In this document: piece after piece, positions 8,841-13,641 of the stretch
Numbering within the stretch: the stretch's first letter is position 1
Layout of the letters: the number at the start of each line of letters is the position of its first letter
Assembly (NCBI RefSeq): GCF_000744115.1
Contig: NZ_JQLG01000004.1
Coordinates: forward strand, 1,178,001 to 1,242,000
Direction of reading: 5' to 3'
DNA: 64,000 bases
DNA from: Carnobacterium alterfunditum DSM 5972
GTDB lineage: Bacteria; Bacillota; Bacilli; Lactobacillales; Carnobacteriaceae
Notes under the pieces: model-generated
Told to the model about the DNA's origin: nothing
Databases searched by the model: none
Seen by the model: the letters and a program-made list of their open reading frames with translations, nothing else
Program-made: the position numbers and the translations under genes

Positions 8841-10484
<1,644 letters not shown>

Positions 10485-10512
10485 TTTGAAGGGTTTTTGA
10501 TTATGTAGAGAA

Positions 10513-10535
10513 AAAAGAGTCTATTCCATGTTGAT
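10513..10535 (+). terminator. 5' arm of glpK terminator, split by IS3 element
   Basis: AGAGTCTATTCCA preceded by A residues is the left arm of a hairpin. Its exact complement TGGAATAGACTCT followed by eight T residues is completed at 12019-12035, on the far side of the IS3 element. With the element removed, the two arms pair over 13 bp around the loop TGTTGA, a strong intrinsic terminator. Confidence 0.85.
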
Positions 10536-10591
10536 GGAGGTAGCGACCCCCAAAAGTTAGAGTGAAATCTAAACTTTTGGGGGTTGTTTTT

Positions 10592-11158
10592 ATGACAAAA
10601 TATAGTGAAGAATTTAAGTTACAAGTTGTTCAAGAGTATCTAAACGGCCCTTTGGGCTTTCAATTACTAGCGAAGAAATATGCTCTTTCCTCTACAACTC
10701 CCCTTAATAATTGGGTAAAGGCATACCGAAAACTTGGTTTGGACGGTTTAAAAAGGAAACAGACGAAAGCAGCTTACTCTGTTCAATTTAAGGTAGATGT
10801 ATTACACTTTATAAAACAGACAGGCACTTCTTATTCAGATACAGCCATTACCTTCGGCATGAATAATCCTTCCCTTATCGCAAATTGGAATCAAGCTTTC
10901 CAAGGCAAGGGAATTGAAGGCCTAAAACCACACCCAAAGGGGCGTCCTTCAATGACTAAAAAACCAAAAAAACAGCAACTGAAACCAGGCACATCAGCAG
11001 ATTGTTCTAGACAAGAATTAGAACGAGAAATTGAACTACTGAAATTGGAGAATGCCTATTTAAAAAAGTTGAAAGCTTTTCAGAAGAATCCCGACGTCTT
11101 TCTCGAAAAGCACAAGCAGCAGTGGCATACGAACTTAAAGAAGAAGGATTCAAACTAA
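10592..11158 (+). CDS. IS3-family OrfA (helix-turn-helix subunit)
   Basis: OrfA of 188 residues: two helix-turn-helix units (about residues 1-55 and 60-115), a basic linker, and a C-terminal leucine-zipper-like helix (ELEREIELLKLENAYLKKL). The slippery heptamer A-AAA-AAG at 11062-11068 lies in this gene's frame. A -1 slip there joins the zipper to OrfB, giving the OrfAB transposase. ATG 10592 is preceded by a GGGGG run rather than a canonical site. Confidence 0.88.
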   Translation: MTKYSEEFKLQVVQEYLNGPLGFQLLAKKYALSSTTPLNNWVKAYRKLGLDGLKRKQTKAAYSVQFKVDVLHFIKQTGTSYSDTAITFGMNNPSLIANWNQAFQGKGIEGLKPHPKGRPSMTKKPKKQQLKPGTSADCSRQELEREIELLKLENAYLKKLKAFQKNPDVFLEKHKQQWHTNLKKKDSN

Positions 11159-11988
11159 AAGATATCCTTCTGGTGGTGGGTATTCCAGAGTCAACCTATC
11201 ACTATTACGTAAAGCAATTAAAAAAAATAGATAGTAATCAGCGACTAAAAGAACAGATTGAACAACTTTTCTTTCAGTTCAAAGAGCGATTTGGATACAA
11301 ACGCATTACAAATGAACTGAAGAAACTAGGTTATAGTGTCAATCACAAGAAAGTTTATCGTCTCATGAAAGAAATGGGTTTGAAGTGTGTTAAATTTATT
11401 AGAAAATCTCGGAAATATAACTCTTATAAAGGAAAAGTAGGCACTATTGCCAAGAATAAGTTAAATAGACGCTTCTCTACATCCATCACTTTACAGAAGC
11501 TCGTCACCGACGTGACAGAGTTTAAATGTACAGGCGGAGAAAAGCTCTACCTTAGTCCTATTCTAGATCTATTTAATAGTGAAGTGATAGCTTATGGAAT
11601 AAATAAACGACCTATCCTGGACTTAGTGATGAAACCTTTGGAAGAAGCCATCGGCATGCTTAAAGAATACGCCACGGTTCGTACCACTCTTCATTCTGAT
11701 CAAGGTTGGCAGTATCAGCATAATCATTGGGTCAAAACACTAAAGAAAAATAACGTTTTTCAGAGTATGTCTCGCAAGGCGACTTGTGCAGATAATGCGG
11801 CAATAGAAAATTTCTTCGGCATCCTAAAACAAGAAATGTATCATGGGGAGAAATTAGTCAGTTATGAGGAATTGAAATCAAGAATTGAAGAATATATCGA
11901 ATGGTATAATCATGTTCGATCAAAAGCAAAATTGGCTGGCTTAAGTCCGGTAGAATACCGAATTCAAACCAGCCAATCAGCTGAATAA
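11122..11988 (+). CDS. IS3-family OrfB (DDE transposase domain)
   Basis: Integrase-core part of the transposase, 288 residues in the open segment shown. It has an HTH_21-like region at the N-terminus and the DDE residues in LVTDVTEFK, LHSDQGWQYQ and NAAIENFFGILKQE. It overlaps OrfA in the -1 frame and its first candidate start (GTG 11122) has no ribosome binding site. It is therefore probably made only as a frameshift fusion from the A-AAA-AAG heptamer at 11062-11068. The reading frame is undamaged, so the element may still be active. Confidence 0.9.
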   Translation: MAYELKEEGFKLKDILLVVGIPESTYHYYVKQLKKIDSNQRLKEQIEQLFFQFKERFGYKRITNELKKLGYSVNHKKVYRLMKEMGLKCVKFIRKSRKYNSYKGKVGTIAKNKLNRRFSTSITLQKLVTDVTEFKCTGGEKLYLSPILDLFNSEVIAYGINKRPILDLVMKPLEEAIGMLKEYATVRTTLHSDQGWQYQHNHWVKTLKKNNVFQSMSRKATCADNAAIENFFGILKQEMYHGEKLVSYEELKSRIEEYIEWYNHVRSKAKLAGLSPVEYRIQTSQSAE

Positions 11989-12018
11989 TAAAAACTCTAA
12001 CTTTTAGGGGTCAGCACC

Positions 12019-12035
12019 GGAATAGACTCTTTTTT
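12019..12035 (+). terminator. 3' arm of glpK terminator beyond the IS3 element
   Basis: GGAATAGACTCT plus eight T residues, the right arm of the hairpin whose left arm is at 10513-10525. Read on the minus strand the same bases follow the DUF2798 gene, which ends at 12051, so the hairpin may once have served both convergent genes. Confidence 0.75.
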
Positions 12036-12050
12036 TTGAAAGTAGAAGTT

Positions 12051-12578
12051 TCAATCGAAATCTATTGAAGAATTATCTTTTACAATCAATTTACTTTCCT
12101 GACGTAAATGTATTTTTTTCATAACTAATCTTGCAGGAGGCTGTGCAATTAAAAGTTCACAAAATAAAGCAATAGAAAAATTTCTAGGCCAATGTGATAA
12201 TGCCTTAAATGAAGCTAAGGTGAACCCCTTACCGATCATAGTGCCAATTACTGTCATAGTCAGAGACATACCAATTACAGTAAAAAGGATGTTAAATAAC
12301 GTTTTCGCATTAAATCCATCAGTATCATTAGAAAAAATATGGACTAATTTTTCTGCAATTCGCCCAAAAACGAGTACTTCTAATAACATGGCAATAATCA
12401 AAATGATTGGAAAAGACTTAAGGATAATCATAAGTACTTCTGTATCAAGCTTACCAAATTCTAGACTAATATTTACTGTACTCATAATTAAGACAGTTAT
12501 TGAACAAATAATGATACCATATAACATTCCTTCTTTGGCATTATGAGGCAATCTGTTTTCTTTAACTTCTTTAATAAT
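12051..12578 (-). pseudogene. DUF2798 membrane protein, 5' end displaced by IS30
   Basis: Small membrane protein of the DUF2798 family, function unknown. Two related halves each have two hydrophobic helices; the first opens PHNAKEGMLYG and the second FNAKTLFNILFTVIGM, ending in the conserved HWPRNFSIALFCELLIAQPPAR. The IS30 copy 2 lies against its 5' end. Rejoining the flanks (one AAT of the duplication removed) gives AAAGGAG, six bases, then ATT-ATT-AAA-GAA. There is no ATG, GTG or TTG at the position this ribosome binding site fits. The first usual start inside is TTG 12551, giving MPHNAKEG, which suits the family but lacks a good site. So the gene was either started from ATT and is now broken, or starts at 12551 and has lost its promoter. 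The open frame continuing into the IS end is accidental. Confidence 0.7.
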
Positions 12579-13641
12579 CGTGGATTGTAAGATTAAGCTA
12601 TACAAATAAAAAAGCCATTCGTGATACACTCTAATTGTATTTCCAACCATAGAAAACAAGGAGTGATCACAAATGACCTATACCCATATTACCATGGATG
12701 AACTAGTGATGATAGAAGCTTATTACCATCAAGGTATTCCAGTTGCTAAAATAGCTGCTTACTTGAATCGTACTCGAACACCGATTAATAATGTTATCAG
12801 GTTCTTCAGAGCAGGACATACAGCTTTCGAGTATTACCTACGGTATAAGAAAAACAAGAAGCAGTGTGGACGCGAAAAAGTTGTTTTACCAGAAGAACAA
12901 CATCTTTATATCAAGGAAAAAGTAGCTGAAGGCTGGACGCCTGATGTCATTATTGGCCGTAAAGAAATGACAATAGACTGTTCCGTACGAACACTTTATA
13001 GACAATTTAAAGAAAAAACATTCGATGAAGCTACCCTTCCAATGAAAGGGAAAAGAAAGCCTAACGGACATCAAGAACGTAGAGGTAGACAAGCTTATAA
13101 ACGAAATATCTCTGAAAGAATAATAGATTATCCAACATTTAAAGAAGAATTTGGTCATATCGAAGGAGATACCATTGTAGGTGTCCGCCACAAAAGTGCG
13201 GTCATTACTCTAGTAGAGATTTTATCGAAAGCTATCATTACCTTAAAGCCCAAAGGGCGTAAAGCCTGCGACATTGAGAGTGCTATGAATCAATGGTTCC
13301 AATCCATACCAAAAAAATTATTCAAATCAATTACTTTTGATTGCGGTAAGGAGTTCTCCAACTGGAAATCTTTGTGCAACCAGCATGATGTCGCTATCTA
13401 CTTCGCTGACCCTGGAACGCCTTCACAACGAGCTTTAAACGAGAATTCTAATGGGCTTCTTCGAAAAGATGGATTGCCAAAAGAAATGGATTTCAACGAA
13501 GTTGATCAGGCTTTCGTATCGTCTGTTGCACACAAACGGAATATAATTCCAAGAAAGTCATTAAATTACCAAACACCGCTGGAAGTTTTTATGAGTTACA
13601 TGGATGAAGATATTTTGTATAGCTTAATTTGACAAATCAGA
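12579..13641 (+). mobile_element. IS30-family insertion sequence, copy 2
   Basis: Second complete 1063-bp copy, flanked by its own 3-bp duplication AAT (12576-12578 and 13642-13644). It has the same ends as copy 1, one base difference (13329) and the same orientation. It points against the DUF2798 gene whose 5' end it abuts. Confidence 0.93.
12673..13632 (+). CDS. IS30-family transposase (copy 2)
   Basis: DDE transposase of 319 residues, identical in sequence to the product at 1130-2089: N-terminal helix-turn-helix, then the D-D-E core in HIEGDTIVG, FDCGKEF and NENSNGLLRKDG. Start ATG 12673 follows AAGGAG. The intact frame and near identity of the two copies imply recent transposition. Confidence 0.95.
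   Translation: MTYTHITMDELVMIEAYYHQGIPVAKIAAYLNRTRTPINNVIRFFRAGHTAFEYYLRYKKNKKQCGREKVVLPEEQHLYIKEKVAEGWTPDVIIGRKEMTIDCSVRTLYRQFKEKTFDEATLPMKGKRKPNGHQERRGRQAYKRNISERIIDYPTFKEEFGHIEGDTIVGVRHKSAVITLVEILSKAIITLKPKGRKACDIESAMNQWFQSIPKKLFKSITFDCGKEFSNWKSLCNQHDVAIYFADPGTPSQRALNENSNGLLRKDGLPKEMDFNEVDQAFVSSVAHKRNIIPRKSLNYQTPLEVFMSYMDEDILYSLI

Follow-up and report, generated by a model that had tools for sequence, protein, structure and literature searches.

Organization of the Split glpK Terminator

In the window (the whole 64,000-nt stretch of DNA that was analyzed), the glycerol kinase gene glpK is followed by a terminator whose two halves are separated by a 1480-bp element. The coordinates of the features are given in Table 1. 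The terminator arms, at 10511–10527 and 12019–12035, are 17 nt long, 100% complementary and 1491 nt apart; AGAGTCTATTCCA, on the 5′ arm side, occupies 10516–10528. The palindrome score at the site was 19, against a mean of 5.0, and none of 60 dinucleotide shuffles reached 19. When the empty site was reconstructed with a single GGA and folded, one long hairpin was obtained, running from the A-tract to eight Ts directly behind glpK.

Table 1. Features of the split glpK terminator and of the inserted element (positions in the window)
Feature	Position	Strand	Basis or remark
glpK, glycerol kinase, whose terminator is split	8967..10484	+	NCBIfam TIGR01311, 740.8 bits (cut-off 590); start and stop checked
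A-tract, 5′ arm, loop and first 3′-arm base of the split terminator	10511..10535	+	
Target duplication GGA, left copy	10536..10538	+	
IS3-family element, 1480 bp, ends GGT...ACC	10539..12018	+	Boundaries common to 7 copies in the genome
Left-end inward terminator-like hairpin with its T-run; the left inverted repeat includes the 5′ arm	10543..10591	+	−28 kcal/mol; 0/200 shuffles as low
orfA, 188 aa from the likely ATG, two helix-turn-helix domains	10592..11158	+	Pfam HTH_28, HTH_Tnp_1; translation checked
orfB open frame, 317 codons (listed ORF 11122–11988), DDE transposase	11035..11988	+	NF033516, 286 bits; Pfam rve, rve_2, HTH_21; frame checked
A6G run, in phase for a putative −1 frameshift from orfA to orfB	11062..11068	+	Read from sequence
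Right-end inward (antisense) terminator-like hairpin in the end of orfB, T-rich tail	11916..11978	−	−30.1 kcal/mol; 0/200 shuffles as low
Target duplication GGA, right copy	12019..12021	+	
Remaining 3′ arm and T-tract of the split terminator	12022..12037	+	

The initial annotation had described a 1480-bp IS3-family element, with GGA on both sides, splitting a perfect hairpin with its T-tract, and had taken the glpK terminator to be the insertion site. This description was borne out by the boundaries, by the match of OrfB to the NCBIfam model NF033516 (286 bits, cut-off 160), by the complementary arms on either side, by the folding of the rejoined site and by a copy in the orthologous glpK terminator of a sister species (see below). 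Several details had to be corrected. A hairpin does form on rejoining, but folding adds a further A-T pair, so that the loop is GTTG and not TGTTGA. The duplication, which had been placed on the loop side, falls in the upper portion of the 3′ arm, at a distance of 5.5 nt from the centre of the hairpin, and T10535, the first base of that arm, stays on the glpK side of the element. The run of eight Ts, read earlier as ending at 12035, spans 12030–12037.

The terminal inverted repeats of the element are 19 nt long and 95% complementary, and the orfA and orfB frames overlap, with an in-phase A6G run that may serve a frameshift. Members of the IS3 family have terminal inverted repeats and duplicate 3–5 bp of target; their ends are typically, though not by definition, 5′-TG...CA-3′. 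Such ends are absent here, the termini being GGT...ACC as fixed by the duplications, and some relatives at ∼60% identity end in TGA...TCA. Among the OrfB matches listed from collections of plasmids and phages, the closest with an IS name were the IS3-family transposases of ISEnfa3 (50.0% identical) and of IS150 (annotated InsK, 45.4%); the listed profile matches of OrfB included no IS1182 model.

Downstream of the split terminator lies an IS30-type element of 1063 bp (12579–13641), which is present many times in the genome and has AT-rich targets. A minus-strand ORF (12051–12659) starts inside it and appears to be cut at its 5′ end.

Copies in the Genome and in the Sister Species

The genome holds seven full copies, each with 0–2 mismatches to the copy in the window and each flanked by a 3-bp duplication. 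Random targets for the other copies had been named as an observation that would count against a hairpin preference; instead, all seven copies split a hairpin with A/T tracts. That the flanking arms are part of the element was ruled out, as the arms differ between sites except at four copies (L002, L003, L006, and L007), which interrupt one palindromic repeat family at the identical base and in the identical orientation. At least 58 of 73 bases of this repeat, with a query typed by eye, are matched at 16 further places in the genome. A single specific palindrome family is not the target: four of the seven copies are in one repeat, and the glpK target and the others differ. Inspection of loci L040–L062 (near position 1500–1600 of each) showed the interspersed repeat that hosts the four copies to consist of a terminator-like hairpin followed by a longer tail that is only loosely conserved. 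Beside a copy of the repeat in L062 (near 1500) stands a hairpin closely matching the one interrupted by copy L005, so the target of L005 may be a repeated hairpin too.

In the sister species (G003, same genus), a copy was found at the same GGA behind glpK in the opposite orientation. An empty glpK site was sought in six genomes of the genus and found in none of them; the element stands behind glpK in two, and the remaining four differ in sequence at this place. The shared base and the shared GGA would fit one ancestral insertion that was later flipped in place. This is decidedly improbable, because the two elements are 97.0% identical and their aligned flanks only 92.4% over 1500 nt upstream and 92.5% over 559 nt downstream, so that the element looks younger than the species split, and because flipping by recombination through 19-bp end repeats would be unusual. 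GlpK itself is 96.5% identical between the two species. Two independent insertions behind glpK are the simplest reading of these sequences. In Lactococcus hircilactis (L094, 933–2416), a relative with 48% identity was seen in a terminator-like hairpin that lies upstream of a glpK gene.

Hairpin Targets Among Relatives

Relatives of the element were sampled from the genus, the family, the class, the order and a second family, with one scan of named genomes, so that parts of the larger groups were covered. The sample consists of fetched loci, which are fewer than all copies listed in the searches. From 156 loci, 152 with a usable OrfB match were obtained and 95 distinct sites, from 54 genomes as grouped here, were kept; the other loci lacked a found end (22), had both ends but no 3-bp duplication (20), repeated a place already included (14, among them L007) or had a short flank (1). 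A few of the genomes may be one organism entered twice. The genome of the window belongs to the same order as G647, whose flanks at one site (L193) equal those of L085 from Marinilactibacillus piezotolerans, and is probably related to the lactic acid bacteria.

A site was scored as a hairpin when a hairpin enclosing the duplication folded at −14 kcal/mol or better. An ungapped palindrome score was dropped as the measure because it missed bulged and wide-loop hairpins such as those of L124 and L238. The threshold was reached at 76 of the 95 sites (median −20.2 kcal/mol), compared with 108 of 619 intergenic control positions from the same loci (median −8.0 kcal/mol) and 60 of 380 positions taken anywhere. 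The Mann–Whitney value for sites against intergenic positions, 9e-33, is overstated, as the sites are related; by genome, the median site passed in 45 of 54. The share of passing sites was 0.86 of 35 at 69–100% OrfB identity, 0.81 of 21 at 62–69% and 0.82 of 34 at 57–62%; below 57% it was 0.20 of 5 (one site). As a control, 28 of 30 fetched loci of the IS30-type element from the same genome were tried. Five had no found ends; none of the remaining 23 sites reached −14 kcal/mol, and 22 of these had a 3-bp duplication. A preference for hairpins, which the initial annotation had left undecided, is supported by the seven copies of the genome and by the 95 sites with their controls.

Weak hairpins (above −8 kcal/mol) were found at six of the 95 sites (L168, L205, L113, L118, L243, and L226), and an ORF of at least 80 aa reached the junction at 12. 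Among the 20 copies lacking a 3-bp duplication, just seven passed the threshold; several that did not pass had an apparent half-terminator on one side, which could stem from recombination between copies. Three sites in G546 have GGCGGGC in common and look like a different target. Recurrent targets were also noted: hairpins of the GAGAGAAG type in G496 (L180, L227–L231), and, in several species of one genus (L168, L170, L174, L182, and L233), a site resembling CTTATT...AGCGCCCG that was entered in both orientations.

Terminator Character and Geometry of the Targets

An A-run of at least 4 nt, located 5–13 nt to the left of the duplication, was present at 44 of the 95 sites, and the corresponding T-run to the right at 45; 68 sites had either tract and 21 had both. 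The background in 5700 positions was ∼8% for each tract and 0.7% for both, and the mirror arrangement was seen at 2/95 and 0/95 sites. Strong hairpins with a tract near the base made up 51 of 76 at the sites and 88 of 384 in the background. At 65 of the 95 sites, the 3′ end of a gene faced the insertion from no more than 200 nt away. In the 56 clearest palindromes, which had a median half-length of 17.5 nt, the duplication was at most 8.5 nt from the centre; in the 50 strongest, it fell in the left arm (24), in the right arm (18) or centrally (8).

Inward Hairpins at the Element Ends

Over its first 50 bases, the element folds into a hairpin of −28 kcal/mol followed by TTGTTTTT, and the T-run ends at 10591; the sole G-rich stretch before the start of orfA falls within this hairpin. 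Inward hairpins with T-runs were found at the left end of 84 of the 95 elements and at the right end of 92. Among 55 elements distinct at their ends, double changes occurred in 7 of 14 consensus pairs on the left and in 10 of 13 on the right, the structures being derived from the same alignments; the right-end alignment has many gaps, and its consensus energy reaches only −5.2. A plain consensus scan reported the right hairpin alone, in a shortened form, and not the left one. The last 33 codons of orfB were compared separately with synonymous shuffles, which the hairpin there exceeded (p of 0.025 or less) in 37 of 51 elements.

The split arms had been expected to let glpK transcription read through into the transposase gene. 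Given the inward terminator-like hairpins at both ends (−28 and −30 kcal/mol), such read-through is unlikely. From their sequence and predicted folding, the insertion probably swaps the host terminator for one of the element's own in either orientation; the glpK transcript would then end near 10591, the inward hairpins would take over for the broken terminator, and they may also shield the transposase from outside transcription.

Target Recognition and Alternative Explanations

With high confidence, we regard the element as belonging to a group of the IS3 family, spread in Bacillota, with a transposase that enters intrinsic-terminator hairpins in their upper part, duplicates 3 bp and uses both orientations. 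The target would be read mainly by its shape, as a palindrome flanked by an A-tract and a T-tract and perhaps extruded as a cruciform, and the inward hairpins would replace the terminator that is broken. Local sequence, which may set the exact base of insertion, appears to matter as well, because four copies of the genome use one repeat at one base. The broader statement is made tentatively and is given slightly less than an even chance: that a widespread IS3-family group of Bacillota recognizes terminators by hairpin shape, with sequence mattering little, and puts its own pair of inward terminators in place of that of the host, landing almost harmlessly behind genes in either orientation.

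The transposase might instead read linear sequence, either the A- and T-tracts or half-sites in the arms bound by the two helix-turn-helix domains, with hairpin formation being unnecessary. The 68 sites with either tract at 5–13 nt, the identical base used in four copies of one repeat, and L085, where an A-tract is present with little hairpin beyond it, all speak for such a reading. We nevertheless consider it rather unlikely, as the targets outside the repeats have no obvious common sequence beyond the tracts and 25 of the 76 strong-hairpin sites have no tract near the base. A fixed distance was not found for either feature in 36 sites (SD 2.9 for the tract and 2.7 for the apex), so that a fixed distance to the A/T tract is unsupported as a rule.

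Targeting coupled to transcription termination, through a paused polymerase or a nascent RNA hairpin and not through the DNA, would agree with the terminator tracts of the sites and with their location behind genes. It would also predict a bias in orientation, which was not observed: where a sole gene faces the site, the element is oriented with it in 20 cases and against it in 22, and 23 more sites are between converging genes. This alternative is judged improbable. Near-random insertion, with survival only of copies in harmless places such as just behind genes, where disruption is mild (the 65 sites facing a gene 3′ end), is very improbable, given that the hairpin threshold is reached at only 108 of 619 intergenic positions from the same loci, that the IS30-type element, under the same selection in the same genome, passes at 0 of 23 sites, and that the duplications lie near the apex and are not spread across the hairpin.

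Comparison with Known Systems

Other elements are already known to target hairpins, among them members of the IS3 family directed at REP sequences. Group IIC introns, like the present element, insert at intrinsic terminators, but they are RNA-based retroelements and not DDE transposons. According to the accessible part of the source, REP palindromes or palindromic units are the insertion sites of the IS3-family elements IS1397, ISKpn1, and ISPsy8; the choice of target is attributed there to the transposase, and ISPsy8 produces a 3-bp repeat and lies on the axis of symmetry of a predicted hairpin (PMC1525189). As far as these elements are described in that part, the present group resembles them in family, in its palindromic targets (7/7 copies in the genome, 76/95 sites) and, for ISPsy8, in the 3-bp duplication. 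They are each directed to one host REP family, whereas here terminator-like hairpins of mostly unrelated sequence are entered in many Bacillota.

IS1272 and TnSha1, of the IS1182 family, are described in the accessible text as inserting into hairpins without a common sequence, several of which were mapped as terminators, and as having entered one repA terminator in both orientations; the hairpin is deleted partly or wholly and no duplication is made (PMC5678879, PMC4923244). Judged from that text, insertion into hairpins and the use of one terminator in both orientations are alike in the present group, but here both arms are kept, 3 bp are duplicated, and OrfB is of the IS3 type and not an IS1182 transposase. 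The accessible parts of the papers on ISSau2 (PMC5771124) and IS1447 (PMC6211511) report no hairpin targets, and that of PMC9208149 contains nothing bearing on them. In the literature searched, mainly open-access papers, no IS3-family element was reported to target terminators in general.

The element would be a simple two-ORF transposon with an apparent structural target that is present behind many genes, and it offers a testable account of near-neutrality, in which one terminator is broken and another is supplied. Beyond IS1272-type elements and group IIC introns, terminator targeting would then include a common DDE family that inserts cleanly, and the question arises of how an integrase-like transposase reads a hairpin.

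Solitary Palindromes Resembling the Element Ends

Short matches to the element ends, examined at 22 loci, were decayed copies or small palindromes. Solitary palindromes of ∼50 bp, resembling two left ends face to face, were seen at L027 (1501–1553) and also at L036, L034, and L012 (near 1500); such palindromes could represent minimal mobile elements, or else relics of the IS that serve as terminators. A 45-nt piece of the left end matches the Tetragenococcus halophilus plasmid NZ_CP027769.1 at 97.8%.
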